Shown here: piece after piece, positions 6,833-62,072 of the stretch | How positions within the stretch are numbered: the stretch's first letter is position 1 | How the letters are laid out: each line of letters starts with the position of its first letter | Assembly: GCF_001316245.1 (NCBI RefSeq) | Contig: NZ_BBDM01000004.1 | Coordinates: 1-64,000 of the forward strand | Source: Vulcanisaeta sp. JCM 14467 | Lineage (GTDB): Archaea; Thermoproteota; Thermoprotei; Thermoproteales; Thermocladiaceae | Direction: 5' to 3' | Length of the DNA stretch: 64,000 bases | Made by a program: the position numbers and the translations under genes | Notes under the pieces: model-generated | The model's input: only the letters and a program-made list of their open reading frames with translations | Database searches by the model: none | What the model was told of the DNA's origin: nothing

Positions 6833-7723
6833 ATGAATGGTTGAAAGTCGATGGACTCGACCACGAACTTCCTTAGGTCATTGGCCTTACTATAGATTTC
6901 TCCCCTCACTGTTCTCTTACCCTTCTTCTTATGCAGTATGGTGTATAGGTGCTTCGTTATTAATTCAAGCCCGTCCTTCCTGAGATAACCCTCGCTGTCC
7001 AGGGACAACTTACTTCTCCTTGACACTGCAATCACGGTATGAATGGCAACGGGCTTAAACATCTCCGAGAAGTCGTAAACAAGCGATGGCCTACCTGGCT
7101 GGTCCACGTGTAATAAGCCTGCGTAGGGGTCTAGTCCCGAGGCTATTAGAGCGTGTGTTGAGAGTGTGTATATTATTGCGTATGCGTAGTCCAACGCCCT
7201 ATTTATTGGGTCATCACCCTAGCTTCCTGCCTGGGAATTCCTTGGGCATGAATTTTCTCAATTCCTCCCACGCCATTTTACTGAGTTCAGCCTCCTCGAG
7301 TATTAACGACTTCCTATCCCTAGCCTTAAGCCTTACCTCGAATTCATTCACCACCACCTTATCTATGTAGGAGAAGTACTTAGCCACATTAAGTATGCCG
7401 CGGATTTTACCCTCAATGAACTTCCTCGCCAACAATAGCCTAGAATCCTCATCCAATGCGTAATACTTCCTCCTAATCTCACTTATCGTGTTTGTGAATG
7501 GCGTAACTAGAATAGTGTCTGTCCTCCTTCCATGAATTAAAATGGGTATGTTCAATGATGAGAGGAAGTTTATGACCTCTGAGGAGAGACTCACGTTATT
7601 CCCAACGATAATGAGTAGTTCTAGGTCTAGTGTAGATACTTGTCTCACCATATTATCGCCCCAATTAATAATCAAGTCGGAACCCTTCCTCCTAATGTTG
7701 GCGTTCTTAACAATCAGTATCAT
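6820..7723 (-). CDS. cas1: CRISPR-associated integrase Cas1, frameshifted
   Basis: Two overlapping frames combine into a Cas1 of about 300 residues. The N-terminal piece (from ATG 7723) holds the beta-rich domain and the region LILEEAELSKMAW, where the second Glu aligns with the catalytic Glu of the family; the C-terminal piece has DYAYAIIYTLSTHALIASGLDPYAGLLHVDQ with the catalytic His, and LVYDFSEMFKP with the catalytic Asp. The break is at about 7220: after PGRKLG the continuation DDPINRALDYAY appears one frame over, explained by one extra base in a G/C run. All active-site residues are present, so I read it as a sequencing error in a working gene. It is the last gene of the csa3-cas6-cas1 arm, with a TATA-like TTTAAATAAG in the gap before it. 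Confidence 0.88.
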
Positions 7724-7768
7724 AGGATTATCAGTAAATTATCAGTTTAAATTATTCTTATTTAAAGT

Positions 7769-8610
7769 TTATCCAAACTTTATTTTTACAAAACCAAAAC
7801 CCGCCGCCCTACCTGACCCTACGCCCATCTCCATGGCATCCCTTAGTATTTCTCTAATAGCCCTCTTAGCCCTCTCGGGCGTGTTTCTCCGCAGGAAGTA
7901 CTTTGCATAACCTATGACCCCAGGTAACCATTTCCCATCATAGTAGTACCAGGTCTTGGTCACAGTATTGAGGATGGTGTGCGACTCCACGAGTGCGTAG
8001 GAAAGCCTGATTATGTTTCTGACGTACTCATCCTTAAATATGTCGTAAACATTTACTGAAAAGACCACGGCCGGGTGCGGTATGAACCTCCTGGCCTTAT
8101 CACGACTTTCGGCTAGGGATATCTTAGCGAATGGGTCAACAAAGAGGGCTGGGGTTATGAAGTAAACCCTAACACTATTAAAGTCCTCTGGGGCTGTGGT
8201 ATCGATTCTCTCATACTCAATGAGCTTAACCTTAACCCTGGAGGACCCGTAATCAAACTCTAAACCACTGGTTAATCTCGAGACTGCTAGGGCAATCTGT
8301 AACTCCAGGGGTTCCCTATAACCAATGTACACGTTATAGCGCCGCCAACACTTATTGGCTTAGGCTCCTGCCTAGGCCTTCCTGAACTCTCGCCAAACCT
8401 AGTAATGATTATCCTGGGGTAGACTGGCTTTTCATCACCTTCATTAAGTAGTGGCGTGATCCTAATGGGCTTGGGCGTTGGTTGATCCTTACCTTCAAAA
8501 ATGCTCTGTAGCTCCGGGTTGGCATTCATTAATATGGTTTTCACGAACTTCCCGGTGAAGTCCTTGGTCACGAAGTGCGAGACGTAGATTTTTAGTTTAA
8601 TTAGCGGCAC
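7769..8610 (-). CDS. cas6: CRISPR RNA endonuclease Cas6, frameshifted
   Basis: Two frames give about 280 residues. The C-terminal piece ends in MGVGSGRAAGFGFVKIKFG, the glycine-rich signature of Cas6 near its C-terminus, and the N-terminal piece begins MPLIKLKIYVSHFVTKDFTGKFVKTILM, the usual first ferredoxin-like strand and helix. The frame changes near 8320-8330 (TCTLVIG then YREPLELQIALAVSRL). Cas6 cuts the pre-crRNA at the base of the repeat to release crRNAs. It starts 4 bases after csa3 stops, so they are one operon. The catalytic residue is not obvious from sequence, as is common in Cas6. Confidence 0.85.
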
Positions 8611-8614
8611 TTAA

Positions 8615-9253
8615 TCACCTCATTAGGTTCAGTATTACCTTACCCATTATCGTTGTCTCGCATAACTTGGTCCTCCTACCAATTCTTTCGCAACTTACCA
8701 ACTCACCCAGGGCATTGAGTTGGCTCACTATGGTTGACTCTGACTTATCCATAATCCTGGTTATGTCGCTTAGACTCAACTTTGTCGTTAATAATTCAAG
8801 TAATTTCAATTGTTCCTGCGTCGGTATCCTGGGGATTGATACAGGTAACTCATAGAAATTTTGCATGTTCTCATCGAATGCGTAAACCCTAACCCTCCTA
8901 ATCTTACTTAAGATAAGTGCCAGGTAATATAGTGCCAGGAGCAGTATACGCATTCCACCTATTAGGTAAAATTCCACGTAACCATCAAATCCCCCCATAC
9001 TCGATATCTGCAGCAGTACACTATCAAATGGTACATCCACATTAACGCTAATTACCTTAACGTCCCTAATCCCAACAATGTCCAGGTACTTCAAGATCGC
9101 GCCCATGGCATCCTCATTCCTCCTCCTGGAAAATTCATCCTTAGGCATGGCCGTAACGAGGATCACCTTGGACACATCATTCACGCCCCTACGCGTTAAG
9201 GCCTTTATTACGTACTCCGAGGAGAATCCCACGTTGAATACCAGGGTGGTCAT
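8615..9253 (-). CDS. csa3: Csa3-type CARF-HTH regulator of CRISPR-Cas
   Basis: A 212-residue protein with an N-terminal CARF (Rossmann-like ligand-binding) domain (TLVFNVGFSSEYVIKALTRRG, then YVEFYLIGGMRILLLALYYLAL) and a C-terminal winged helix (LLTTKLSLSDITRIMDKSESTIVSQLNALGELVSCERIGR). This is the Csa3 layout: a cyclic-oligonucleotide-responsive transcription factor that controls cas genes or spacer acquisition in Crenarchaeota. It is divergent from cas10d with 112 bases between them, well placed to regulate both arms. In Sulfolobus Csa3 is tied to type I-A; finding it inside a type I-D locus is worth noting. Confidence 0.85.
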   Translation of the reverse strand: MTTLVFNVGFSSEYVIKALTRRGVNDVSKVILVTAMPKDEFSRRRNEDAMGAILKYLDIVGIRDVKVISVNVDVPFDSVLLQISSMGGFDGYVEFYLIGGMRILLLALYYLALILSKIRRVRVYAFDENMQNFYELPVSIPRIPTQEQLKLLELLTTKLSLSDITRIMDKSESTIVSQLNALGELVSCERIGRRTKLCETTIMGKVILNLMR

Positions 9254-9365
9254 TAATATTCATGTACTCATAAATAAATATAAACCTTTTTCTACATTAT
9301 CGCCAAAATATCACGAACATGAGATTAAGTGATAAAGCTTATAAAGGGATACTATTAACATACTA
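9254..9365. promoter_or_regulatory. divergent promoter region csa3 / cas10d
   Basis: Contains CTTATAAAGG at 9338-9347, a TATA box 19-28 bases before the cas10d ATG at 9366 (leaderless). On the minus strand an A/T-rich TTTATATTTATTTATG stretch near 9266-9285 can serve csa3. The region is the likely site for autoregulation by Csa3; I see no perfect palindrome in it. Confidence 0.5.
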
Positions 9366-11891
9366 ATGATGGCTTACGTAGGCAGTAAGGAGGTTGACCT
9401 GGTCTCTAGTGCGTTGAGGTCAGTGACGTTTAAGCAAGGGGTTAGAGAGGCTAAGAAGAGATCGCCGCAGTCATATATATTCCACGCAGTCTCTGTAGGT
9501 GTCTTATCTCTCGACATTTGTAGGGCAATATATAACGAGAGCGATGTAGGTAGGCAATTACTTAGTAAGTTGGCGGATAACTATGGGATGCCATATGAGG
9601 AATTATGTTTCTATGGCGGTTTCCTGCATGATTGGAATAAGCTTGAGGGTAAGGAGGAGGGTGCGAGGGAAATAATGAACAAACTGGGCCTTGGTGGCCG
9701 TGAGGAGTTCCTTCATGGGATAGCCGCAATGGCTGAGGGCTCATTACCAGATAATCAGCACCTACCCCTTTGGGTATCGATTAAGTTAGCCGACATGCTC
9801 ATGATAAGTGAGATAAATAGCGTCAATGATGTCTTTAAACACGTAAGCTCACGTGCGTACCAGGATGCGGTAAGGGCCCTTGAGAACTTTGGGCTAAGGC
9901 TAGGCCGCATCTCCGCAACATTTCGTTTATTCACCCTAATAGCATCAAGGGATTTACTAAACGAGGTAATTAATGGCCCAGGGTACTACCCACTAATATC
10001 CTACCCTGACGGGCTAGTATTCCTACGTAGGCGGGATGCACCGCCAATACCGCTAAGTAAAATCGCAGACGTACTTAATAAAAGGGTATTCACATCATCA
10101 AAGGAGGAAGTAGAAAGTAAGGTTGAGGAAATAAGGAGGTGCCTAAACAGTAAGATTAAACTATTCAGGGAAATGAACATAGACGTTAAATCGGCCATTT
10201 ATAAGGACGACGGAAAAATGAGACAAGTCAATGAATTCCTACCTACAAAGGTATGTAAGCCCTTCGAGGACATTGTCGGCAACCTAGATAATGCAGCAAA
10301 GCTTGAGGTGGCTAGAAGTATCATTAAGGAGCTCGGGGATGAAATACCGTATGGTGTCCTAATGTATTTCGTACATAAGTTTAGTAAGAGCGATAAAGAT
10401 TACATAAGGAGAGGACTAGGAATTAGTGAGGGATCACTGGAATACCTGGAGAGCCTTGATCTACAGAGGGCGAGGGAGATGCTGGGTAAAATACTTGAGC
10501 TATTGCAGGCTAGGTACCCATTGAATGCCCAGGGCATTGATAAGACGCTTCAATACTATGTGAAACACTCATTTAGTGGGGACGTGATTGATGACCTACC
10601 ACCCATCAATGAGAAGCCGAAGAATTACTGCGTGGTCTGTGGTATGCCCATATACTCAGAAGGTTCCGTAAGGTTTGTCCAATATGCCACTGAATTAGGC
10701 GGTAAGTCCGAGATTTGGGTACCTAGGGAGAGGGGGTTGGAGAATATTGACGATATAAGAGATGAACTGAGGGTGTGCCCGATCTGTACTTATGAAGCCA
10801 ACGCATTAAAGAGCGTGGCTAAGCCTCCGTACTTCATCATTACGTTCCAGCCAGGCGTGCCTGTAAGTCTCCTTGAGATTATAGATTTTGAGCAGGTGGA
10901 TATTAATTACAGTATTGATGAGGATGAGAATTATTACAGCGCATTCAAGAGGATGGGTGGGGGCTTCAATCCAAATTCACCAAGGGTTTTACCAGGTTTC
11001 TTCTCATCGAAGGTCCTGATCAAGGCATCGGAGGTAATTGAGTCTAAATTATCGAGGTCCACGAGATTAAGTAAGAGTGAACTGAATAAGTTATTGCCAT
11101 ATGCGCACATGATTTCAATAGTATTCCTAACCTCCCCAGTGGCAATATCCTCAAGCATTTATGAAATACCCTCAACACAGAATTATGTTGTTTCAGTAAC
11201 ATCGGCATATAATTATGCTTCATAAATCCGCTCAAATTTAAGACCAACCTAAATATGCTCTACGCCTTATCCGCATACTCGGCTAAGTACCTCGTGATTA
11301 GGAGCGTGAGCGTCAGCAAGGATGAGTTGGACAATAACTTGAATAGTATGGTTAATGAAGCCGACCTCTACTCCACCGTGGATCCATCCCTCGGCATCTT
11401 AAGCGTGGGTATGGGTATTGGAACCCCCATTGAGCTTGATGCCAGGTTTTTTTCGAAACCTTAAATTACTTAGATACATATTGGATGTTGCCGGGAGGGT
11501 GAGTGAGATGGGTAAAACCATCAGATCTTCCATTTACACGATCGCCCACGTATTGAGAGAGGTGGTTAGGAGCCAGGACGTGACTAAGTACGATGTAGTG
11601 GGATTCCTGAGGGATGGCGTGGATATGTTCTTCAGAACCTCAACCATAATACATGATAAGGATGATAGAATTGGCGTCTCAATAAACGCGGCGATTTCGT
11701 CACTTGAGAATAAATACTCACTAAATGATGTGCAGAGGGCGAAGGTATACTCAGCCTTAGAGGACTTATTCGAGTCCTTATATGAGATTGAGGAGAAGGC
11801 GGATAGGAGCTTAGCAATTTCAATAGCCAACACCCTCTCAAACTGGCTATATATTGCTTATAAAATAGTCACCCAAGGTGATAAGTCATGA
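9366..11891 (+). CDS. cas10d: type I-D effector large subunit Cas10d (Csc3), frameshifted
   Basis: Three frames combine into about 840 residues. The N-terminus carries the HD nuclease motif FYGGFLHDWNKLEG (H87-D88), which in type I-D replaces the HD of Cas3. A zinc-binding pair follows: YCVVCGMP near residue 422 and VCPICTYEAN near residue 471. The remainder is the degenerate palm region (GGGFNPNSP) and a helical C-terminus. Breaks: near 11221 (NYAS then INPLKFKTN) and at a run of seven T at 11445-11451 (DARFF then RNLKLLRY). Cas10d recruits to the Cascade-like complex and degrades target DNA. The last 127 residues probably also make Cas11d from an internal start. Confidence 0.9.
11508..11891 (+). 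CDS. cas11d: putative Cas11d small subunit from an internal start in cas10d
   Basis: An in-frame ATG at 11508 within the 3' part of cas10d is preceded by GGAGGGTGAGTGAG, containing GGTGA five bases before the ATG, the same type of ribosome binding site used by other internal genes of this window. Translation would give 127 residues, mostly helical (MGKTIRSSIYTIAHVLREVV, then SLNDVQRAKVYSALEDLFES). Established knowledge: in type I-D systems the small subunit Cas11d is made by internal initiation near the cas10d 3' end. The size and helical character fit. The call for this species is inference from the RBS and position. Confidence 0.5.
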   Translation: MGKTIRSSIYTIAHVLREVVRSQDVTKYDVVGFLRDGVDMFFRTSTIIHDKDDRIGVSINAAISSLENKYSLNDVQRAKVYSALEDLFESLYEIEEKADRSLAISIANTLSNWLYIAYKIVTQGDKS

Positions 11892-11912
11892 GTGGGAGGG
11901 ACGTATTAGCAG

Positions 11913-12944
11913 GTGTTTGGCTTAAAGAGCTTTGAGGAGATCAGTAGGTACTTTGCAGACCTTAGTCAACCCAATAAGGAAAACGCGGTGCCCAGGGGTA
12001 GGGTGGCGAACGTATTCGTGGTAATACAAGCCGAGGGTGAGTTGGTAATTAGGCACGAAGGCGGCGAGGACGTGACGCTGGCCACGATAGACGGCGATAA
12101 ATACCCAATGATACTGCATGAGAAGCTGGTCTCTGCCTGGAGGAGACAAATGTTAGAGATATTAAGAAGTGACTACGACATCCATAGGAAGGAAATTAAT
12201 GAAATACTTGGAAAGGGTGAGAATTACCAGTGGCACTGCTCGTTAAGGCCGACCATCACCGTAAAGAAGAGTAGGGGTAGGGAAAGTACGGAGGAAAAAA
12301 ATGGGCGGTCTTTGCAGGGAATGCCCCAATTGCATGGTGTTCGGCTTCGCAGTAGGTGAGGGCGAGAGGTATAACTTAAAGAGTAGGGTTGAGGGAGACA
12401 TATACCTAGCAACGACGCCTGAGAGCAGGAGCGTGGTGATTAGAACCTTTAATGCCGTTGATGAGGTTACACACACGACCTACATACAGGCTGAGGGTGA
12501 AAGAACTGGCGCCCTCTTTAGGCTTTCCCTGATAAGGGAGGGCACGCTATTCGTGGGAAAGATCGCGCTTAAGGACTATCACCGGCAGAATTTGCCTTGG
12601 CCCTATATAGCCTGGCGGTTACAACGAGGATTGGCGGCGTCAAGAGTGATTTTGGTAAGGTCAAGATAATAATCCCAGCAATAGCCCTGTGCGATCATGA
12701 GGTCTCATCAGGCTATGAAGTCTTTGGAAGGGTTAAGGGTCTCGATAATGTTAGTGAGGTTGTGAGGATAATCAACGACCACGTTAAACAATTCAGCAGT
12801 GAGTGCCGTGTATTTACCTCAGAGGATTTTGCAAAGAGGATTATCGAGACCGTGGGTAAGAATAAGCATGAGATAATAGCCGAGGCCTGGAGAGATGGTC
12901 TAAACTTCAAGAAGAGCATTGAGGCCTTCATTGGGGCAGAGTGA
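11913..12944 (+). CDS. csc2: Csc2 (Cas7-type backbone of type I-D), frameshifted
   Basis: Three frames give about 340 residues. Csc2 features: an N-terminal [25 protein letters not shown] segment, a middle Cys cluster [16 protein letters not shown], and [20 protein letters not shown]. This subunit polymerises along the crRNA. Breaks: a seven-A run at about 12295-12301, and near 12587 (DYHRQ then [10 protein letters not shown]). The annotated start is GTG 11913; an ATG at 11888 overlapping the cas10d stop (ATGA) could be the true start if a further base is missing near 11912, giving MSGRDVLAG before VFGLKSF. Confidence 0.88.
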
Positions 12945-12950
12945 TCGATA

Positions 12951-13732
12951 ATGAAACTATACAGGGCCTACTTCAAACTCCATGGTATATTAATATTTTC
13001 CTCAGAGATCAGACCCATGATAACTGCTGGGGAAGCGATGGGTTCCTACATATCTCCGTCACCCTACATTCATAATTACCCCGTTATGTACGGTTTAATG
13101 GGAAAGCCATCAGAGACCTACTTCGTTTTCCCATCGCTGCATTACTTAGATTATGAGGAGAGGATGAGGAGGACGCCAACACGAAGGGGCTTGCAATACA
13201 CGAGTATTAGGAAATTATTAGAGGATTTTAAGAACGGAAGGGATTCCTTCTACGTATTCCCCTTAATACCCACCAAACTTGTGGTATCATCATTCCTACT
13301 TTCAGCCGAGTCCTGGAGTTACGTAATCCCCACCAGGTCGCCAACTAAGAACGTATTCCCCAGGCTAACGAGCTATGCCGCATTCATGCCAGGTAGTGAG
13401 TTTAAAACCTACGTGGTTGTTCAAGGCAAGGTCAAGCTACCGGAGTGGGTAAGAATCGGCAAGAAGAGGTGGGGCATATTTAGGGTTGATTATGATGAGG
13501 TGAGGGTTGAGGGAGTGAGGATAGAACGTAATAGGGTAACATCCATCCCAATAAACTATAACGATGCCAAGTTCTTCGGCTTTGAACTAAGGTCATTTTC
13601 AAAGGTCTTGGAAACACCAAACATCGAGGAAGGCTGATAGGCTGGGCCGAGTTGGAGGAGTGCACCGTGATTCGAGGCACGATTAATAAGGATAAGGTTG
13701 AGGTTTGCCTACCCATAAGGTGGGGGGATTGA
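12951..13732 (+). CDS. csc1: Csc1 (Cas5-type subunit of type I-D), frameshifted near the end
   Basis: Begins MKLYRAYFKLHGILIFSSEIRP, the Csc1 ferredoxin-like N-terminus, then TAGEAMGSYISPSPYIHNYPVMYGL, the conserved family segment. It caps the 5' handle of the crRNA. One frame stops at 13637 (NIEEG), but a continuation one frame over, GRLIGWAELEECTV, runs to a stop at 13732 directly before the cas3 ATG, so a base is missing near 13622. Restored length about 260 residues. Six bases separate it from csc2. Confidence 0.85.
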
Positions 13733-13733
13733 A

Positions 13734-15702
13734 ATGAAGAGTGGGTTGACAGGCATATCATTCACAGTGAAGGAGGCGTACATCGAGGAGGGGGATGCGA
13801 TAATCAACGGAATCAGGCTAAGGAGGTTCCAGGAGGAGTTATTCAACTCCTTAGGGAAATATAGGAGGATCCTGTTAAGGGCACCAACGGGCTCCGGTAA
13901 GACGTTCACGCTAATACTTGCGGCAATAAAATCCCGCCTAGAGGCGCAGCACTACCCAGTCGTTGGAATCTACCCATCAAAGGCCCTGGTTTATGACCAG
14001 GCAAGAAGTATATGCGAGACATTGAGAAAAATGGGGCTTAGGCAGTATGAGAATCGATTTATCGGCGATATAGTCATTAATGGTGAGAATAAGGGAAGCA
14101 TTGAATTGAACATCTACGTGGTGACCAGCGAGAGTAGGAGAGGCATCGTTACGGCAGAGGACGATTGTTGGCAGGGAGATATACCAAGTGATTACCCGCC
14201 CTCGGTAATACCAATAGTCCTCACAGTCCCTGAGTATCCCTACATGATCATAACCGCGATGAATAGGCAGTACACTGCGTCACGAATCATCGAGGCTGCG
14301 CTTAAGTATGACTTCGACGATGCGGTGAGGGTGTTGGGCGGCTTGAGGAGTGAGGTTAGGGAATTATATAATGACTTTGCGAGAGCCTTCAATGGGTATT
14401 GGTTCATAGATGAGTTCCATCTATATTCAGGGTTAGCGAGAAAGTCAATGCTAGCCTTAATTGAGATGTTCGAGAAATACAATAGTGTGATTAAGAGCAA
14501 TAAGAGTGTCGTGTTCTCATCAGCAACGCCAGTACCAATAAGCGTTGATAAGGCTATAGAGGTTAAAACCGTGGATAAAGGCAGCAGGATCAGAAAGGCA
14601 ACACACGTTGTATTTCATCTATCTACCCATAATCCTCAGGAGGAGTTAGTGAATTACGTGCAGGAGGGTGGGGAGGTAAGGACTGCGGTCATACTGGACA
14701 GAATTTATTACATAGCTGAATTATGCAGGAGGGTTAAGGATGCAGCCGTGGTTTGGGGTCTTGACATAGCCTACGGAAATTGTAGAAAGGTTGAGAAGGG
14801 ATTGGATAGGGAGAAGTTCATAATAGGGAATCAGGCTATGTCCTTTGGTATTGACATAGACCTCGATAAAGGCTTCATCCACGCGCATGACGCGGAAACT
14901 AATACAGAGGTTCGGGAGGTTTGGTAGGCATGGGAATGGAGCTGCCGAAGTTCACGTGTTCATCGAGGCTGGAGCAAAGGCAATACATGAGTTAAGCAGC
15001 GTTAAAGGTAAGGACGTGAGTTATGAGGAATTCCTCGATTTAATCAGAAAGATATATAGGGAGAGAATTTATGATAAACTCGATGAAATATTCTTTTCAA
15101 GGATAAGGTATGACATAATGATGAGGGTATTCACATTAACCTACGCAGTTTCACAGGGTGAACACGTTTATTCACTTGCTAGGCAATGGTATCCCAGTAA
15201 CGAAGCTTTAATAAATGGTAAGCCCATTCACGAAATTTTAAGGCCATCATACGACGAGTACTTCTACGTCTTCGCCTATAGACCAGGCGGTTTAAGGGGA
15301 CGTTGGTGTGAGGGTGGAGAAGATGAGTTATTCTCGATGTTACGAAACTTCGCGTACGATCACTACAATCACTGTTTCACGAAGAACCCATTGAAGGAAA
15401 TGCCCGCTATTATCCCAAGCGAGCGAAAGATAGGTAGTGTTAAGTGCGACTTTATGACATTTAACGACTTCAGCAGGAGTCTAAGCCCGAGACTCATCCT
15501 ACAGAGACAGGGCATGTCCGTACCAATGAGTCGAATGAGGGAATTCGAAAACTCTTACGTGGTGATGCTCACGAGAGAATGCACGGACTGGGGCAGCGAT
15601 TTCCCAGAGATGGCTAGGCTAGTCTCAACCTACGAAAACGCAATACCAATATACAGGGATGAACAGTTAACAACGGTCATTGGACTAGCCCTATTCATTT
15701 AA
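13734..15702 (+). CDS. cas3: Cas3 helicase of type I-D (no HD domain), frameshifted
   Basis: About 655 residues over two frames. Superfamily 2 helicase motifs in order: Walker A LRAPTGSGKTFT (near residue 48), Walker B/DExH variant WFIDEFHLYSG (near 223), motif III VFSSATPVP (near 262), and motif VI LIQRFGRFGRHGNG in the second frame. No HD nuclease domain precedes the helicase, as expected for type I-D where Cas10d carries it. The break is near 14897 (HDAET then LIQRFGR), one base missing. It begins one base after csc1 ends and is the last gene of the effector operon. Confidence 0.9.
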
Positions 15703-24955: not shown

Positions 24956-25818
24956 TTATTCTTCCTCTTCTTCCTCAGTCTCACGGGTCGCAGTCTTAGT
25001 CTCCTTAACGGCCTTCTCGGTTTCCTCAACCGCCTTCCTCATTTCCTCAACCTCCTCCTTAGGCAGTGGCTGTACTGATGCTGAGGTTGCCGTTAGTTTC
25101 AGGTACTTGTCCCAATAAATGACGACTCCCTCGTCCGTTATATCCATTGGGTGCCTAACCATGGATATCTTCGTATCCCTCATCTTCCAGATGATTATTG
25201 ACCTGTATAACTTACCATCAATCTCATCAAGGTCAAGCCTAATGATACCATCAACCGCATGCTCAACACCAGGCCCGCCAAAGCCGCGTTCACCAACCGA
25301 TACCTGGCTTATGAAGAGGGCTGTCGTGCCTAGCCCTGCTATGATCCTCTTTAATAACATGACCGTTGACCTAGCTATTGATGGCTTGGTTAGGTATAAC
25401 GTGCTTACCGAGTCTATGGTAACCCTCTTGGCACCCGTATCCTTAATCGCTTGTCTCAGCACGTCGACGAGCTCGTGGACATTGTCGATATCCTTAACCA
25501 CGTACTTCTCCCTCTGAGATGCAGAGCCGATACCCGCCGTGAACGCATCAACAATTGCGAACTTACCCTCCTTCTCGAACTTCGTGATATCCCAATTAAA
25601 GTGACGGAAACTACGTCTAACAGCCACTGGGTGTTCCTCCAGTGCCACGAAGACGCCGGGCTCATTCCTGCAAGGCCGTTGTATAGGAATTGCTTACCGA
25701 GTATTGACTTACCAGTGCCAGGCCCGCCAGAAACAAGGACAACACTCCTCTCTGGAATACCGCCATACAATATCTCGTCAAGTCCAGGTACGTAGGTCCT
25801 AACCCTAGGTACAGTCAT
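24956..25818 (-). CDS. KaiC-like RecA-family ATPase with acidic tail, frameshifted
   Basis: About 287 residues over two frames. Walker [14 protein letters not shown] near residue 33, [12 protein letters not shown], Walker B-like [13 protein letters not shown], and [30 protein letters not shown], characteristic of single-domain archaeal KaiC proteins (thermo_KaiC_2 type). The last about 35 residues are a charged coiled coil ending in seven consecutive Glu. The break is near 25655 (NGLAG then [12 protein letters not shown]). These proteins hydrolyse ATP and are thought to signal; the role is not known. Minus-strand TTTTTAAGCG about 25-30 bases upstream is the probable TATA box. Confidence 0.82.
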
Positions 25819-47323: not shown

Positions 47324-48252
47324 GTGAGTAAGGACGTGGAATCAAGGATTATAGACATAGTTAATGAGATGAGGTCTTCAGTCGTGAGCATTATAACGAC
47401 GAGGTTAATGGTTGATGAATGGTTAAACGCAACGCCGGTCAGGGGTCTTGGTACGGGGTTCTTCGTGGATAATAAGCACGTGGTCACGGCAAACCACGTG
47501 GTGCAGGACGCAACGGAATTAGTTGTGGTTACGCCAGATGGTGATGAGTATGAGGGTGAATTGCTAGGTAGGGATCCGGAGTTTGATACTGCATTAATTA
47601 GGGTTGAGGGCGCTAGGTCCGTTAAGTCAGTGAAACTCGGTGATTCCGATAAGCTCAAGGTTGGCAGATGGTGATAGCCATAGGATACCCACTTGGCTTA
47701 CTTGGTGAGCCGACGGTCACGTTAGGCGTTGTTTCAGCGATCGGTAGGAGTATAAGGACTCCAGTGGGTGTTCTCGAGGGTTTGATACAGACAGACGCAG
47801 CAATAAACCCAGGCAATTCAGGCGGTCCCCTACTTAACCTCGATGGTGAGGTTGTCGGTATGAATACCGCAATAATAGCCGGCGCCCAGGGAATTGGGTT
47901 TGCAGTACCGATAAACCTGGTTAAGCTAACGATTGAGGAGATCCTAAGGTTTGGCAGGGTCGTTAGGCCGAGGCTAGGTATATACGGGGTTGACCTCAGT
48001 AAGCCCATGGCTAGGTACTTCAGGCTGCCCGTGGAGAAGGGAGTATTAGTGGTGGGGGTCTTACCTGGGTCGCCAGCTGATGATGCCGGTCTTAGGCAGG
48101 GTGACGTAATTACCGCCATTGATGACGAGGAATTATCGAGCATAGTCCAGCTGAAGGTTCACCTGGCGAGGAAGTTTATTGAGGGTAATAGGGTTTTTGA
48201 TTTGACGGTGGTTAGGGGCAGGACTAGGTACAGGATTAAGGTCAGTATCTAA
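47324..48252 (+). CDS. htrA: HtrA/DegP-like serine protease with PDZ domain, frameshifted
   Basis: About 310 residues. Trypsin-like protease with the triad in place: TANHVVQ (His), DPEFDTALI (Asp), and [12 protein letters not shown] (Ser). One PDZ domain follows ([38 protein letters not shown]). There is no signal peptide or membrane anchor, so it acts in the cytoplasm, unlike most bacterial HtrA. GTG 47324 start. The break is near 47668 (KVGRW / [10 protein letters not shown]), one base. Its role is likely protein quality control. Confidence 0.9.
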
Positions 48253-49472: not shown

Positions 49473-50800
49473 CTAGCTACCTAGCCTTCTACGTGACTTC
49501 TTTATTTGATTAACCATTCTCTTCATTAACTGGTAGTAATTCAGTAGTTCCTTAACATCCTTTGGAGTTACTCCAGCACCCTTGGCTATCCTGCGTATTC
49601 TCGATGCATTAATAATGTCCGGGTTTAGTAACTCATTCTTCGTCATGGAATCAAGTATGTACCTCCACCTCCTAAGCATTTCCTGGGCATTACTCATCTT
49701 CTCCTCATCAAGCATCACGGCCCTATACTGCATTGGCAACATACTCGTTGGTAGTAGCTCCAGGATCTTACTGAGGGGTCCGAGCTTCATTAATGAGTCA
49801 ATCTGTCTCTTAATGGTCAGTAGGTTTATCTTGCCCTCCTCTATCTCCTCCATGATCTTACTCTCCTCCTCAATGGCCCTTATCCTCTCGATTAATGACT
49901 CAAGGTCACCCATACCCAGGAGCCTCGATACGTACTTATTGGCGTCAAAGACCTCGACCTCATCAACATCCTCACCAACGCCTATGAACTTAATCCTCGC
50001 ACCACTCTTTATAACCGAGGTCAACGCACCGCCTGCCTTTGCCGTACTATCCATCTTCGTTAGGAAAACGCTGTGTATCGGCACGTACTTCATGAACGCC
50101 TCCGTCTGGGCGGCGGCCTGCCTACCAATTGTTGCGTCTATCACGAGCATGATCTCGTCGGGCTTAGCTTCATCATAAATTGCCTTAGCCTCCCTCAGCA
50201 ACTCCTCCTCATTCCTATGCCTACCTGCCGTATCAATTATTATTAAGTCCACCTTATTCCTCTGCATGTACTCAAGGCCATGCCTAAGTATGGCTATTGG
50301 ATCCTTTGAATTCTCCTCACCATAGAACAGGGCATTGACCTTCTCGGCTAATTGCTTAAGCTGGTGATACGCACCTGGCCTATACGTATCAGTCTCGATA
50401 AGCCCAACCCTTAGGTTTCGCTTAATGTAAAACCTGGCCAGCTTAGCCGCTGATGTTGTCTTGCCACTACCCTCAACGCCAATTAGCATTAGTTATAAGG
50501 TCTCTTGCTAATGTTTACGTTGGGCGTCTCTTCACCACCAAGTGCCTTAACCAACTCCTGATATAGCAGGTATATCAGAAACTCCTTACTCGTGATTCCC
50601 TGGGGAGGCTTATCTTGCCTGAACCTCTCCTCGATAGCCTTCGTTATTGATAGGACAACGTCAGCACTAACGTCAGCCTTAAGCAGTATCCTCTGGATCT
50701 CCCTCAGAACCTCCTTAAGCGTTGTCTCATCTATGTAATTCAACCCTCTAATCCTATTAACCAAATTCGTGAAGGCCTCAATTAATGGGTTCGGTGCCAC
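49473..50800 (-). CDS. srp54: signal recognition particle GTPase SRP54, frameshifted
   Basis: About 442 residues. N-domain four-helix bundle, then after a break near 50495 the G-domain: GVEGSGKTTSAAKLA (P-loop), ETDTYRPGAYHQL, IIIDTAGRHRNEEELL, LTKMDSTAKAGGALT, and the methionine-rich M-domain (LMKLGPLSKILELLPTSMLPM) for signal sequence and 7S RNA binding. It targets nascent proteins to SecY. Start GTG 50800, with a TATA-like ATTATTTAAAGG about 25-35 bases upstream. Essential, so the frame break is a sequence error. Confidence 0.93.
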
Positions 50801-50835: not shown

Positions 50836-51898
50836 TTATTGCGGGTATTGCTGCGATTCGTAATACTGAGACGTGTAGTACTGCTGTGGGTAGTAATAAC
50901 CGTAATAGTTCTGCGGGTACTGCTGACTGCTGCAGTAACTCCTGTAATAATTGAGTGTGTTCTCGTCATTCAGAGGCCCAATTACGTAAATTCCACCAGG
51001 CTCCTTTATCTCATATATGAGCTTTATTGGCCTAATGGGCATCCACCTCATTTTCCTAATGAACATTATTCTGACCAAGCAGCCAAGGCCGTTATTAAAT
51101 AGTGGTAATTCCCTGAGGGAAAGCATGATCACACCACTGGCCAGGTACTCCTCAACGCCAAACCTGCTGAGCTTATTCTCCTCACCGGTGGGTATCTCTG
51201 ACGTCATTACCGTGGTCACGTCCTTAAGCCTCTTAAGCTGAAACACCAACTCCCTAAGGTACTCCCTAATCCAAATAACGTCCTGGTGACTCATTATTAT
51301 TAACGGCGCGATTGGGTCAATGACGAGTCTCTTAACATCATACTTCTTAACCTGTTCAATAATCATCTTAGCCAAGTCCCTTGGGTCAAGGGTTATCTTC
51401 TCATCACGTGCATAAATCCTGAAGTAAGTCCTGAAATCAGCCATGATTAACTTACCGCTTTTTTTCATATGTATCAAGGTCCCAGCCAAGGGCATCACGG
51501 ACACCCCTCTTAACGTCCTCTGATGGTTCATCGACGGTCACGTACATGCCCACCTCGCCAAGTTCGGCGCCCGTCCTTAGGAATGTTAGGCTAAATATAG
51601 TCTTCCCAGTACCAGCCTCACCAGCTATTAGGTAGACCTCACCTCTCTTGAACCCACCACCTAGTATGTATGTGTCCAGGTAGTTAATCCCGGTTAGTGC
51701 CTTGTCTTCATAGTAATAGTAGTAGTATGGGTATTGATCCTGCGGATACTGAACGGTTTGCGTATTGTAGGGATATTGATAATATGCCGTCGTATCGTTA
51801 TAGTAATTACTTGATTGGTAATTTCCATAATAATCATAATAATTAGAGTTAGAGTAAGTATCCGAGTCTGAAGTAACCTGTCTCTTCATTGAATTCAT
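50836..51898 (-). CDS. KaiC/RAD55-like ATPase with tyrosine-rich tails at both ends
   Basis: About 354 residues from ATG 51898; an upstream ATG at 51949 is possible, but a TATA box at 51927-51937 lies inside that version. A RecA-type core (GGGFKRGEVYLIAGEAGTGKTIFSLTF, Walker A; KRLVIDPIAPLI, Walker B) resembles KaiC-like archaeal ATPases. Unusually it is flanked by low-complexity tails made almost only of Tyr, Gln, Asn, Ser, Pro and Asp: an N-tail of about 60 residues ending in six Tyr (QDQYPYYYYYYEDK) and a C-tail of about 37 (QQYPQNYYGYYYPQQYY). The break is at a seven-A run near 51466. The role is unknown. Confidence 0.8.
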
Positions 51899-51945: not shown

Positions 51946-53533
51946 TCAATGTTCCTTCGGCCTTACCTTGAGTTGAACATTGAACTTCTTCCTAATATTC
52001 TCGAGTTTAGGTAAGCCCTTGGAAATAACTACGCCTATATATGCATCAGGTACTTGAATTATTATTGACCCATCCTCACCCTTAATTATCGACACCTCCT
52101 CAGGGGGCACGTACTTCCTCAAAACCCTAATAATCCTACTAATCAACCTCTTATCACCAACGGCCTGGCTAACCCTACGCGACTTACTTATCGGCGTTAC
52201 GAATATCTCCTCACCAAACACATAGATCTCATACTCAACCGTGTCGTTTATGAAGTCCTTAACAATAACCACAGGCCTTGCGAGATCCTCCTCACTCATG
52301 CCCTCAGGTACCTTAACCGTGAGCTCAAGGCTATACACCTTCTGAACCTCGCCATCCTTCATGAAGAGTACCGTGTCTATTATGGACGGGAGCATTCCAA
52401 GCTCGGTCCTACCTATAAACCTCTGTATCGCGTCTATAGGGCTTGTCGCATGGACGACACCAACCATACCAACGCCAGCCAGCCTAAGGTCTATGTATAA
52501 TTGGAAGTCCGCAGTATCCCTCATCTCGTCAAATATCGTGAAGTCAGGCCTAGATAACAGTAGTAGGTCATGTATTTCCTCAGATGATGCGTACGTCTTC
52601 GATATTTGCGTTATCTCATTGGGAAGTATCATGTCTCTCGGCGACTCCACGGTCTTAACAATCTTACCAAGGCTCATGTAGTACTCAGCCAATGCCTGGG
52701 CGAAGGTCGTCTTACCAGCCCCTGGCGGACCAGCAATTAGTATTCCTTCAGCCTGCCTACTTAGCCTATCAAGAACCTTAGGATGAAGTGAGTACTCCTC
52801 AAGTCTCCTCTTAATCAATGGCTTAACGGCAGTTATCTCAATACCATCAGACACGGGGGGTAGTGCAACAACGATCCTATACTCACCGTGCTGAATTATC
52901 AATGAGTTCTCCCTCCTGATCTCAATCCTAGTACTACTATCAGCCATTAGTGATGCCGATATTAACTCCCTAACCATCCTCTCAAGATACTCCCTACTAA
53001 GTGGTTCATTGCCGAGGGGCACTAACTGCCAATTACCTGGCCTACCCTTCTTGGCGTATGGTATTGAGCCTCCTTCAGGTGAACAGACATTGTGTCATTA
53101 TCGAAGAACTTCTCAATCTCCAGCTATCCTTATGTTGACCGATGAATAGGGTCTCAATGCCCATGGCCTTTGAGATCTCATAATTCATCTCATCACTAGT
53201 CACCAGGGTTGCACCCAATTCCCTCGCTAACTCCCTAACAATCTCATCAACCGAGTGCTGGTCAGGTCTCGGTATTGATTTAGGAAGTACTGATACGTAC
53301 TCAATCCTTACATCCTCAAGGCCCAGCTTATTTATTGAGTCCGTTATGTAGTTCAACTCCCTAATACCAAGCCAACCCAATGCACCGCCAGCCCTGGCCT
53401 CGCTCTCGAACTTCCTAATTATCTCAGTATGAATCAATAATCTGCCCTTGATGCTACCCCTCAATATTGCCTCCTTTAGGCTTCCATCCAAGAACACCGA
53501 TGTATCTGGTATGTAAATACTGCCTACTTGCAT
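51946..53533 (-). CDS. PIN domain-ATPase-KH protein (COG1855-like), two frameshifts
   Basis: About 527 residues. An N-terminal PIN nuclease domain (YIPDTSVFLDGSLKEAIL; ELGATLVTSDEMNYEISKAMG with acidic residues), then MSVHLKEGSIPYAKKGRPGNW, the linker typical of the family, a PilT/VirB11-like ATPase (LIAGPPGAGKTTFAQ, FTIFDEMRDTADF, GVVHATSPIDAIQRF) and a C-terminal KH-like RNA-binding part. Known archaeal protein of unresolved role, thought to link RNA cleavage to ATP hydrolysis. Breaks near 53110 and 53060. It lies just upstream of the tyrosine-rich KaiC-like gene. Confidence 0.85.
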
Positions 53534-53599: not shown

Positions 53600-54591
53600 T
53601 TAATCATTACTAACGACGGTAACGCCATTAACATCAAGCACGGCCTTCAACACAGATCCTCCCGTGAGCTCTATGGCCTTCTCAACCTCAACCCTATCAG
53701 ATAGCGCTATCATGCACCCACCACCGCCGGCACCCGTCAACTTCGAGCCGAGGGCACCAGCACTCCTGGCTGCATAAACCAACTCATTCAATTGCTTAGT
53801 TGATACACCGAGCGCGTCGAGTAATCCGTGATTAATATTCATTAGAGCGCCCATTAACTCTAGATCACCCTTCTCCAGGGCCTCCCTACCTCTTTTGGTG
53901 ATTGTGCCTATTGACCTTATTATCGGCTCTATCACGTCTCTCATTGCCTCATACTTCCTCCTAACCATAGCCACCAAGTCCTTCGTCGTGCTCACCCTAG
54001 GCACGTACCCAATAATCAATGGTACATTAATACCGGGCCTTACTGGCTCCATTACCGCATTATTACCCTCGGGCCTCACATACATTATACCGCCGAAGGT
54101 TGCCATGGTTGTGTCCGTAGGGCTTGCGGAGCCCTGAACATCCCTCTCAACCTGCCACGCCAGGCGTGCTAACTCTCGCTTATCAATGTCATAACCCAAT
54201 TCCCTTATGTATGCATATATTGTTGCGACGGCCACAGCAGCCGACGTACCCAACCCAGCACCCACGGGCATTTCGGACCGTATCTCCAGGTCAATACCCG
54301 ATTTCTTATCGACATACTCCATGGCAAGTTCAACAGCTCTCTTAACATAACTCAATGCGGAGATTACCGCGCCGTAATCAGTCCTGCTATTACATCACCG
54401 TTCTCATTAATAGTTACGGAAATGCCCGCCAACTTCAAATCCCTAGCATTTATGTTGATCCTATTATCACTCCTGGCCCTTGCCGTGACGTAGACATACT
54501 TACTAATAGCCATTGCCAGGGCCGGCTCGCCATAAACGACAGCATGTTCCCCATACAATATCACCTTGCCCGGCGCCTTTACGGTAACCAC
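53600..54591 (-). CDS. mvk: mevalonate kinase, frameshifted
   Basis: About 330 residues of the GHMP kinase family. VKAPGKVILYGEHAVVYGEPALAMAIS is the N-terminal substrate-binding segment, then after a break near 54362, MPVGAGLGTSAAVAVATIYAY (the phosphate loop), TDTTMATFGG with the catalytic Asp, and KLTGAGGGGCMIALSD. It phosphorylates mevalonate for isoprenoid lipid synthesis. Start GTG 54591. Confidence 0.93.
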
Positions 54592-58565: not shown

Positions 58566-58688
58566 AATACTGCCCTTTACGTTAAACACCAACTTCGTTA
58601 GCGCTTCGCGATTTAAAAAAGTGTTATTTTTGTTATTGAATTGAAAGTTTTAATAAACCCTAAAAATACTAACTTTTTATCAATAAAT

Positions 58689-61600
58689 ATGGGTAGTATA
58701 GTGGGTGTGAGTTTCTGGAGTAAATTCACACGCTCACTATTAAGGAGGTATATAATCATAGCCTTAATAATTATGATTATCATACCACTAGCCGTTAAGG
58801 CTCAGGCTCCTGCCGTAAATAGTACACACTTTGTGATTTATGACCTGGCAAATGCCGGTCAAGCCTACGACCAAGAACTAGACAACTACCTAGAGCAGGG
58901 ATACTCCACATATACGGGTCTTGGCATGAAGATGGCACCGCCATGCAGTGGAAATCAGTACACAGTATATGTGGTTTCTCAGGCTGAGCAGGCCAGTGAG
59001 GCTGGCGTGACTGAGTGGTATTATGAGTATAACCCAAGCACGGGCCAAATAATTAACGCCTGCATTGTTGAGATAAACATAAGCGCTGGCCTAAATCAAG
59101 AATGGCTAGAGCACACGGCATACCATGAGTTAGTTCATGTATCGCAATTAGCGTATTTGCAATACACAACGATGCCGCAGAATTATCCCTGGTACATCGA
59201 GGCTGATGCTGAGGGCACGGCAAGCTATTACACGAATCAATGCCCAATAGCCCAGGACTACTTTCAATACAACCAGTATGAGTATGACCCATACGACTAC
59301 TCAGGAAAACCTATAATAAACATGTACTACTACTCAGCCTTTATTTACTGGCTGGTCGCTAACGGGATTGAACCAGCCACAATAGAGCAGAACGTATTCG
59401 CGGGAAGCGCCATCGTTAATTCATGGCTCGATAATTACTACATCCAATACTTACTCTCCATAGTCCATGGCCAGGACCTATGCGGTACAACATACTACCC
59501 AAGTTTCCAAACAATAAGCGTGAGCGGTAACACCTACTCATTTAGCATTAGTCTACAGGGACTAAGCGCGGAGTACTACGAAGTTCAGCTACCCGCCACG
59601 GGCACCATAGAGATTACCGCGAGTGGTGGTTCGGTCATTAGTAATATAGAGCTTAATTCAGCATTCTCGGTAACAAACACCACCCTATACATGGCTGTGG
59701 TCAACCCAACGACCAATAGCGAAACCGTTACATTGACAATAAGCTATACCCCAGGTATGATGGTTAAAATAGTTAGTGGAACCTACAACGTCATGAGGGG
59801 GTCACTGACCCTAGAACTCTACGTTACATATGGGACAGCCCCAGTTACGGGTACAATATACGTCAATGGCACAGCGATCAGCGCAAGTAATGGTTATGCG
59901 AGTATCACGTTGACGGGAATTACCTGGGGTACCTACACGGTCAATGTGACGTACGATAACTCAGCCGCACTTGCTCAGGTAACCCTTACGCAACCAACAA
60001 TATCACTAATAACATCATCCACACTATACCTAACGAGTGATAGCTTCGGTTATTTAGTGTTTTCAATAAATAATCCCAACAATGTGATTCTCATAACCGA
60101 TGTAATTGTCTCATCACCACCAAGTCCAACGAACCCCTTCAAACCAATGATCTATTTCCAACCAGGTAATGAAACCGTGACATTAAACCCAGGCACAAAC
60201 ACGGTCAAGGTTTATTTCTTCACCAATAGCACTGTGACGAGCGGGCAGGGCGATATTTACCTATACAATAGCCCAAGCACGGCAATAACACTCGGCTATA
60301 ACGTGGTGCCAGCCCAAGTGGATATCTCTGATGCTACGTATTACATAAATGGTAATTACACGGTAATCAATGCATACGTTAGTGGGATAAGCTCAATTCA
60401 GTCTGTGGTAGCTGGCCTAAGCGGTGCGGTTTACGTTAATTACAGCACGTACACTATAACAGTACTCATAATAAACATAACACCGCCAACCATAGACTTG
60501 ATTCCGAGCATCATAACCATCGCACCACACTGGGTCTTAGTCAACGCAACGATAGGGATCTACAGCCCAACAACCTGCCCAGGATATCCCGTAACCTATA
60601 GCGGTGAGTTCTACGTGAATAACAATTACGTGGGCAGCGCCACGGTGCAATGCGGTAAGGCCAAATTCATCTGGGGCGTGTTGAACTTAACGTACACGGG
60701 CAATAAACTAACGCTTACAATAAGCAATTCATCAATCACCACGAGCCTAGGTATTGTACCACCGAGAATTACCGTAATTGATTATCTATGGAATGTGACG
60801 GGCACCACTGAGTATGTGACGGTAGATCTAAGCGTAACTGGTCCTTATCAATACGTGGTTTTCAACCACGTACTGAGCAATTCAACGATAGAGGTCAATT
60901 ATACCCTACCCATAAGTGAGGGCGTTCTGGTTATAAACACTGGGTTCAATAATATAACGATTTCAAGACCAACACCATCAATAAGCCTTGAATCACCTGC
61001 AATAACGGCGTACCCACACGTAATAAGCGTCACCATTAATATCACGATGCCACCAACACTCGCTTACGAAGGCCCATTAAACGTGTACATAAACGGGTCA
61101 TTATACTCATCAATGATCATCAACTTACCACCAGGCAGGTCAAGCCTAGTTAACGTACTCGTTAAACCAATGATGCCAAGCATTTATGTAATCGATGTAG
61201 AACTTGGCACATGGTCATCTAGCAACATCACGGCAGCCAGCGTGGAGTTGCTCGGATTAAGCATACAGGCTGAGCCGCTGGTGCTTATTGGTCGTTATGA
61301 GACAATAAACATAACACTCAATGATTACCCACCAATAAGCCTCCCCATAAATGTCACACTCAATGGTTGCATTAATGAGACGATGGTGGTTACGGCAAAT
61401 GCATCATTAAGCATGGCATTCAATGAGGAATGTAAGTTAAGCATTAATGCATCATCATATATACTGACAAGTGAGGCGGTTAGTTATTGGGATGACCTAA
61501 ACCTATGGATAAACAACACAATTGGTTACTACGATGGCTACCCGTTACTGCTTAACGAGACAATAACCGCATACGCAACATTCAATAACGGCTCAAGGGT

Positions 61601-62072
61601 TCCAGCAACGGTTCTCATTAATGGTTCAAACACATTCACACCGCAGGCCTTAGGGCCGATTACAATCATGCTGAGCATCGAGTACCTAGGCATTACTAAT
61701 GAGTCTGAAATTAATGCGTATGTTATACCGCCAACATACTTCGAAGCCGAGGAGATACTTAATGAATTGGGAAACCCACCATTCCTAAACACCACAATAG
61801 CCAACGCCATAAAAAGTGGTAATTGGGGATTGGTAAACGAAGTAGTCAGTGATTACCAATCATCATCAAGGTCCTACGACCCACTTGCCCAATTATCAAG
61901 GTACTTATTAACGCAGGCCATAGTGAATGGCGACATCAATAGGATAGGCTTGGTAAGCACCATACTAAGGTATGAAATCCTCATCTACGTAGTATTTACC
62001 GCGGTAATTACACTAATGATAATTGCGATATACAGAATAGTCAGGGCCAAGCGGTATAAATCATCCATGTAA
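58689..62072 (+). CDS. large surface-anchored zinc metalloprotease
   Basis: 1,127 residues from ATG 58689. A signal anchor (RYIIIALIIMIIIPLAVKA, cleavage near AQA) is followed by a metallopeptidase domain with YHELVHVSQ (HELVH, Zn ligands), a third acidic ligand in PWYIEADAEGTASYY, and then a long beta-sandwich-rich stretch with repeated SITLTISYTP- and NVTY-type segments and dozens of N-x-S/T sequons. It ends with a membrane helix and basic tail (VFTAVITLMIIAIYRIV then RAKRYKSSM). So it is displayed outside and anchored at both ends or processed to a secreted form. Intact reading frame despite its length. Gluzincin-like by HExxH with a distant Glu. Confidence 0.8.
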   Translation: MGSIVGVSFWSKFTRSLLRRYIIIALIIMIIIPLAVKAQAPAVNSTHFVIYDLANAGQAYDQELDNYLEQGYSTYTGLGMKMAPPCSGNQYTVYVVSQAEQASEAGVTEWYYEYNPSTGQIINACIVEINISAGLNQEWLEHTAYHELVHVSQLAYLQYTTMPQNYPWYIEADAEGTASYYTNQCPIAQDYFQYNQYEYDPYDYSGKPIINMYYYSAFIYWLVANGIEPATIEQNVFAGSAIVNSWLDNYYIQYLLSIVHGQDLCGTTYYPSFQTISVSGNTYSFSISLQGLSAEYYEVQLPATGTIEITASGGSVISNIELNSAFSVTNTTLYMAVVNPTTNSETVTLTISYTPGMMVKIVSGTYNVMRGSLTLELYVTYGTAPVTGTIYVNGTAISASNGYASITLTGITWGTYTVNVTYDNSAALAQVTLTQPTISLITSSTLYLTSDSFGYLVFSINNPNNVILITDVIVSSPPSPTNPFKPMIYFQPGNETVTLNPGTNTVKVYFFTNSTVTSGQGDIYLYNSPSTAITLGYNVVPAQVDISDATYYINGNYTVINAYVSGISSIQSVVAGLSGAVYVNYSTYTITVLIINITPPTIDLIPSIITIAPHWVLVNATIGIYSPTTCPGYPVTYSGEFYVNNNYVGSATVQCGKAKFIWGVLNLTYTGNKLTLTISNSSITTSLGIVPPRITVIDYLWNVTGTTEYVTVDLSVTGPYQYVVFNHVLSNSTIEVNYTLPISEGVLVINTGFNNITISRPTPSISLESPAITAYPHVISVTINITMPPTLAYEGPLNVYINGSLYSSMIINLPPGRSSLVNVLVKPMMPSIYVIDVELGTWSSSNITAASVELLGLSIQAEPLVLIGRYETINITLNDYPPISLPINVTLNGCINETMVVTANASLSMAFNEECKLSINASSYILTSEAVSYWDDLNLWINNTIGYYDGYPLLLNETITAYATFNNGSRVPATVLINGSNTFTPQALGPITIMLSIEYLGITNESEINAYVIPPTYFEAEEILNELGNPPFLNTTIANAIKSGNWGLVNEVVSDYQSSSRSYDPLAQLSRYLLTQAIVNGDINRIGLVSTILRYEILIYVVFTAVITLMIIAIYRIVRAKRYKSSM

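Follow-up and report, generated by a model that had tools for sequence, protein, structure and literature searches.

Tyrosine-rich tails flank a KaiC-like ATPase in a 64,000-nucleotide stretch (the window) of contig NZ_BBDM01000004.1 of Vulcanisaeta sp. JCM 14467, which raises the question of whether such tails are genuine, whether they are maintained, and what they might do on an enzyme of this type. The gene is read from the minus strand (50836..51898), with an ATG start at 51898 and a stop at 50836-50838. In the present assembly, it is divided into two ORFs, one comprising the N-tail and the Walker A motif (51949-51452) and the other comprising the Walker B motif and the C-tail (51531-50836). 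The frame breaks at a 7-nt homopolymer (51459..51465, minus strand), and the gene is a single frame of 343-351 amino acids (aa), both tails included, in seven genomes of the same genus. Several other genes of the window are likewise split into two ORFs each, namely, those encoding an HtrA-like protein (47324-48252), SRP54 (49473-50800), PINA (51946-53533), and a mevalonate-kinase-like protein (53600-54591), which is consistent with an indel-rich assembly and makes sequencing error the likeliest cause of the break. The same gene is also broken, at another position, in the Vulcanisaeta assemblies JCM 16159 and JCM 11216. Since both tails are in frame in the seven intact genomes, the possibility that they are artefacts of the frame break was ruled out, and the doubt about the C-tail raised by an earlier sequence-only reading was settled in favor of a genuine tail.

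Both halves of the gene matched the KaiC family PF06745 (E values of 1.7e-25 and 1.5e-29; 90.2 and 103.5 bits), and the intact orthologue from genome G007 scored 208.7 bits against a cut-off of 26.6. The Walker A (GEAGTGKT, 51599..51622, minus strand) and Walker B (RLVIDP, 51313..51330, minus strand) motifs are both present, with the pattern G-E-x-G-x-G-K-T and the Walker B Asp being invariant in the A1 alignment. We then modeled the G007 orthologue with AlphaFold2 as a monomer, using 41 family sequences, and obtained pLDDT values of 85-96 for most of the core, with weaker loops. A Foldseek search using this predicted model retrieved PH0186 (2zts) as the best match (E value of 3e-20, TMt 0.86-0.88) as well as the CI domain of KaiC, placing the model within the RecA/KaiC fold. 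The KaiC-type core proposed from the sequence was thus confirmed by HMM and by the fold of the predicted model. Identification as a clock KaiC or as ArlH was ruled out by HMM scores far under the cut-offs: the protein has one domain instead of the two of circadian KaiC (TIGR02655, 35 and 30 bits versus 546), while the ArlH/FlaH profile (NF006320) reached only 18.8 bits versus 215, in the N-terminal half only, and the genomic context consists of PINA and SRP54 rather than arl genes. The enzyme itself is an ordinary archaeal single-domain KaiC-like ATPase whose core resembles PH0186 and SSO2452 (2w0m) in sequence and fold. PDB sequence matches were restricted to this core (query residues about 67-302), leaving the Tyr-rich flanks without comparable counterparts in the best matches. 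A second KaiC-like fragment was found elsewhere in the window (24956-25648, minus strand; PF06745, E value of 3e-58); it carries no Tyr tails and lacks the N-terminal part, probably because of another frame break.

While the enzyme type is already known, its combination with Tyr-rich tails constitutes what appears to be a new domain architecture. The N-tail (51695..51898, minus strand) spans 68 aa, including 20 Tyr (29%), 7 Asn, 7 Gln, 7 Ser, 6 Asp, 6 Thr, and 3 Pro, and contains a six-Tyr run encoded by a mixture of TAC and TAT (51710..51727, minus strand). The C-tail (50839..50973, minus strand) spans 45 aa, including 14 Tyr (31%), 9 Gln, 5 Ser, and 4 Asn. Against a Tyr content of 4.5% over the ORFs of the window, the binomial probabilities are 1e-11 (N-tail) and 5e-9 (C-tail). 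Ranked by Tyr density in any 40 residues, the two KaiC halves come first among 75 ORFs of the window, and the top 17 of 256 ORFs from Thermoproteales loci are all this KaiC. These counts bear out the first description of very dense Tyr at both ends and of a six-Tyr run. Its statement that the tails consist almost only of Y, Q, N, S, P, and D named the main residues correctly but was slightly overstated, as Thr equals Asp in the N-tail and the opening eight or so residues are ordinary. Y, Q, N, S, G, P, and T account for 75% of the N-tail and 84% of the C-tail, a prion-like composition, with 3 and 1 Arg+Lys and net charges of -4 and -2, respectively. The proposal of disordered, prion-like tails was also supported by prediction, with FoldIndex values of -0.31 and -0.35 and, in the G007 orthologue, pLDDT values of 29-40 over residues 1-60 and of 34-43 over the C-tail, predicted to be disordered from residue 323. 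A genome-wide family of similar tails was considered and dropped, as a tail search of the genome matched essentially the KaiC gene alone, with one weak match in a different protein (E value of 0.07, 33% identity). Only one further run of five Tyr codons occurs in the genome, within a 180-aa fragment (L079) that appears by eye to be unrelated to KaiC.

To evaluate how the tails evolve, we aligned the codons of eight Vulcanisaeta sequences, with the window's own copy entered in two pieces and the residues at the break left out. In ordered pairwise comparisons, Tyr was retained in 89% of cases in the N-tail and 87% in the C-tail, values drawn from sequences that are akin rather than independent and that the aligner may inflate in low-complexity regions; the number of Tyr in the last 60 N-tail residues (17-20) is unaffected by how the sequences are aligned. 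Retention in the N-tail was lower for Asn (66%), Ser (44%), Thr (60%), and Pro (69%), while that of Gln was also high (84% in the N-tail and 89% in the C-tail). The sequence-only reading had asked whether Tyr richness is conserved while the sequence drifts, and this is what we observed. All columns that always encode Tyr mix TAT and TAC (12 of 12 in the N-tail, 4 of 4 in the C-tail), and in the N-tail 434 of 888 Tyr-Tyr cells use different codons, which is near saturation. Where either sequence has Tyr, both do in 80% (N-tail) and 78% (C-tail) of cells, compared with 87% for the folded core; a rough estimate of the neutral ceiling is about 14%. The pN/pS ratios of the tails exceed those of the core and are mostly well below 0.4 (mostly below 0.35 in the N-tail), with the exception of the C-tail compared with G011, the most distant genome. 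Because Tyr is kept while its codons vary, these sequence comparisons indicate that Tyr in the tails is kept by selection and not by drift. The tails could instead be functionless, as neutral low-complexity expansions or by-products of slippage in AT-rich DNA, and their length does differ between genera; however, the mixed and species-variable Tyr codons rule out slippage or drift as the source of the tyrosines, and the low N-tail pN/pS together with the persistence of the trait through nearly the whole order make a functionless origin very improbable.

A genome scan recovered the KaiC-like protein in Vulcanisaeta, Caldivirga, Thermocladium, Thermoproteus, Pyrobaculum, and Thermoproteales MAGs, then in Thermofilum and other Thermoprotei, and finally in Brockarchaeota. 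In all 38 Thermoproteales orthologues, a set that leaves out one basal lineage of the order, the 25 residues ahead of the core contain 3-10 Tyr and no Cys4 motif. The 11 other sequences, from this basal lineage and class-level outgroups, have 0-3 Tyr at this position and all carry a C-x2-C...C...C motif, whose four Cys are invariant in the alignment of finger-type N-termini. Thus, the expectation that relatives with the same core would also be tailed held for the main body of Thermoproteales but failed outside it, where a zinc finger is found instead. For example, Thermofilales-type orthologues (L041-L051) have a core 41-51% identical to that of the tailed protein, but where the tailed protein has its Tyr-rich segment, they carry a Cys4 finger and a disordered linker rich in Pro, Ala, and Gln. 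In the AlphaFold2 model of a finger-type orthologue, residues 1-30 reached pLDDT values of 65-77 and were followed by a linker predicted to be disordered to about residue 117, then by the core. In the core tree, midpoint-rooted for drawing only, Tyr-type sequences form one clade of 23 rows (SH-aLRT 100), including one Thermoproteus row scored as having neither N-terminus (three Tyr, short N-terminus); the sister of this clade, L125, is of the zinc-finger type, as are the Thermofilales-type sequences that come next. Since a single Tyr-type clade has finger-type neighbors, one replacement is the simplest history, and the exchange of the zinc finger for a Tyr-rich segment probably took place a single time, near the root of Thermoproteales. 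In KaiC-like proteins from Brockarchaeota and in related ones (L143-L150), the core is immediately preceded by a zinc ribbon (CxxC...CxxC), suggesting that a metal-binding N-terminus may be old.

The Tyr segment would later have lengthened in Vulcanisaeta and its kin, and a matching Tyr-rich C-tail would have been added in Vulcanisaeta. The N-tail is about 22-23 aa in Pyrobaculum (MAYQEQYSYDYQDYYPVYDNRAP) and shorter still in Thermoproteus. It reaches about 56-65 aa in Thermocladium and Caldivirga, where the last 60 residues include 12-14 Tyr, and about 62-72 aa in Vulcanisaeta, where the same span includes 17-20; long N-tails are confined to Vulcanisaeta and close kin (f1 genera). A strongly Tyr-rich C-tail is a feature of Vulcanisaeta and is weaker in Caldivirga (YQYSYYPYTTQ) and Thermocladium, a near-limitation that the sequence-only reading had not anticipated, any more than the zinc-finger replacement or the conserved gene order described below. 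Pyrobaculum is the hottest-growing of these genera, and its tails are among the shortest. Heat adaptation as a driver was rejected, as longer tails do not go with hotter growth, and the earlier suggestion of heat-stable aromatic networks found no support. The broad occurrence of the juxta-core Tyr also fits a narrower explanation, in which the functional part would be a short Tyr motif beside the core (such as YYPVYDNRAPTG or YYYYYYEDKALTG) acting as a latch that folds on binding and docks on its own ring or on one partner, the rest being spacer. The 3-10 Tyr are found ahead of the core in all 38 orthologues, long tails only in f1 genera, and in most sequences the motif runs into a similar short joint before the invariant TG of the core (such as EDKALTG, DNRAPTG, or EDRAPTG). 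However, Tyr is also held in the distal part of the N-tail and in the C-tail of Vulcanisaeta despite synonymous saturation, and AlphaFold2, in a monomer model only, gave low confidence up to residue 60, most juxta-core Tyr included. We consider such a latch a serious but unlikely alternative, ahead of the other alternatives discussed here.

The gene order around the KaiC-like gene is also conserved. Upstream lies a PIN-ATPase-KH gene in two ORFs (51946..53533, minus strand; NF010335, NF053733), and downstream lies an SRP54 gene in two ORFs (49473..50800, minus strand; PF02881, PF00448, PF02978). The neighbor noted at first sight as a PIN-ATPase-KH protein was identified by HMM as PINA (NF010335, 510 bits versus a cut-off of 340); its ATPase-KH piece alone scored 452 bits with NF053733, whose cut-off of 800 is meant for the whole protein. 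The PINA-KaiC-SRP54 order is kept in Vulcanisaeta, its sister genus (g3), Caldivirga (g2), and g8 of f2, as well as in the zinc-finger lineages f3, f4, and f7, several of the Thermofilales-type loci having it in common with Vulcanisaeta. Only PINA-KaiC is kept in g7 (Thermoproteus-type) and only KaiC-SRP54 in g5 (Pyrobaculum-type), while neither gene is near KaiC in f5 (Thermofilum-type); each of the 23 genomes checked nevertheless encodes PINA at some locus. Since finger-type KaiC occupies the same gene position, the link to PINA, if real, would belong to the core and predate the Tyr tails. The adjoining SRP54 gene and the existence of KaiC ATPases associated with type IV pili could suggest that the tails tether the protein to the membrane, the envelope, or another cellular structure rather than promoting self-association, and the sister genus begins with MSIFEKFRRKRK, a basic leader ahead of a Tyr/Pro/Gln-rich tail. 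However, the Vulcanisaeta tails show no sign of a hydrophobic or amphipathic helix, and genes of the PINA family were not observed in secretion settings (PMC4858521), making a tether improbable.

We favor an explanation, to which we assign a probability of roughly 40%, in which the zinc finger of a KaiC ring gave way to Tyr tails that act as stickers between rings or between a ring and a partner, likely PINA. If the core assembles as a KaiC-type hexamer, the 34 Tyr per chain on two tails would display about 200 tail Tyr on the twelve arms of each ring, and these aromatic stickers would hold rings together or to the partner. Ring assembly depending on ATP or phosphorylation would then set the valence, high as a hexamer and low as a monomer. 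The tails resemble the low-complexity domains of FUS, EWSR1, and TAF15 (FET-type), which are likewise disordered, weakly charged, and rich in Tyr with Gln, Ser, and Asn. The Tyr density of the tails is about twice that of FUS. In contrast to FET-type proteins, the tailed KaiC is archaeal, has Tyr runs, and places them on a ring-type ATPase; with 3 and 1 Arg+Lys in the tails, the FET-type pairing of a Tyr segment with an Arg-rich disordered segment was not found in the protein, and the Tyr-Arg stickers of FUS-type proteins are thus missing in cis. The protein may cluster reversibly through its Tyr tails, although heat would be expected to loosen contacts between Tyr residues. The replaced zinc finger probably also served binding.

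PINA is suggested as the likely partner by the archaellum, in which the KaiC-like ArlH (FlaH) binds ArlI, a related, secretion-type hexameric ATPase: the ArlH hexamer sits on ArlI and is released upon autophosphorylation (PMC8978795). PINA has Holliday-junction branch-migration activity in Sulfolobales (PMC8775617), and its ATPase belongs to a clade including secretion ATPases and PilT (PMC4858521). Gene order and homology would thus be compatible with a KaiC-PINA double ring, in which the KaiC-like protein would gather or regulate PINA at nucleic-acid substrates. ArlH also oligomerises and switches by autophosphorylation (PMC8978795), but the neighbor of the present protein is PINA and not ArlI, and the Tyr tails are new. 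Against a partnership with PINA, Pyrobaculum retains a short Tyr segment though PINA is not adjacent. The phosphorylation control of ArlH (PMC8978795) also lends some weight to another possibility, in which the tails would be multisite tyrosine-phosphorylation substrates that switch ring or partner binding; archaeal Ser/Thr/Tyr phosphorylation is documented (PMC2652253, PMC7744417). However, runs of adjacent Tyr with few charged neighbors would be unlike defined kinase sites, and we regard this possibility as rather improbable, if somewhat less so than a tether.

The sticker model can be extended to a bolder version, in which Tyr tails on a KaiC ring would form a condensate switch, gated by ATP-driven ring assembly, and at 75-100 C would gather PINA on recombination intermediates. 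We consider this version doubtful, only slightly better placed than tail phosphorylation; if true, prion-like phase separation would have evolved independently in hyperthermophiles, through the zinc-finger exchange. Condensate-forming proteins are barely known in archaea: archaeal entries make up 1% of a 2025 condensate database, in which Cren7 is proposed, with further study needed (PMC12532770). The Tyr-rich module described here is selected and nearly order-wide, and the zinc-finger orthologues, which share the core and the neighboring genes, offer a built-in control. It makes it possible to ask whether aromatic stickers still work at temperatures close to the limit for life, and it points to a candidate regulator of PINA. 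No description of Tyr-rich tails on KaiC proteins was found in the literature searched, archaeal KaiC-hub and prion-like-domain studies being outside its scope; within it, "Vulcanisaeta" and "KaiC" co-occur only in a pilus census.

Other Tyr-rich proteins were observed in passing. Vulcanisaeta relatives encode ORFs of about 280-300 aa with about 40 Tyr (L089 at about 1501 in G004; L095 at about 1501 in G011), in which a hydrophobic helix is immediately followed by a Tyr run (VMPYYYYYYNYYYGNYPS; ITSYYYYYYYGYYRGPGYY), corresponding to a different, probably extracytoplasmic protein. The window also contains a 1143-aa ORF (58641-62072, plus strand) with a signal-like N-terminus, 11 Tyr in 40 aa, and no Pfam match, and a similar ORF starts at L055:10937. 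Finally, the region 7214-15702 of the window encodes Cas6 (PF10040), along with Cas1-like and Cas10/Cas3-like ORFs recognized by eye only.
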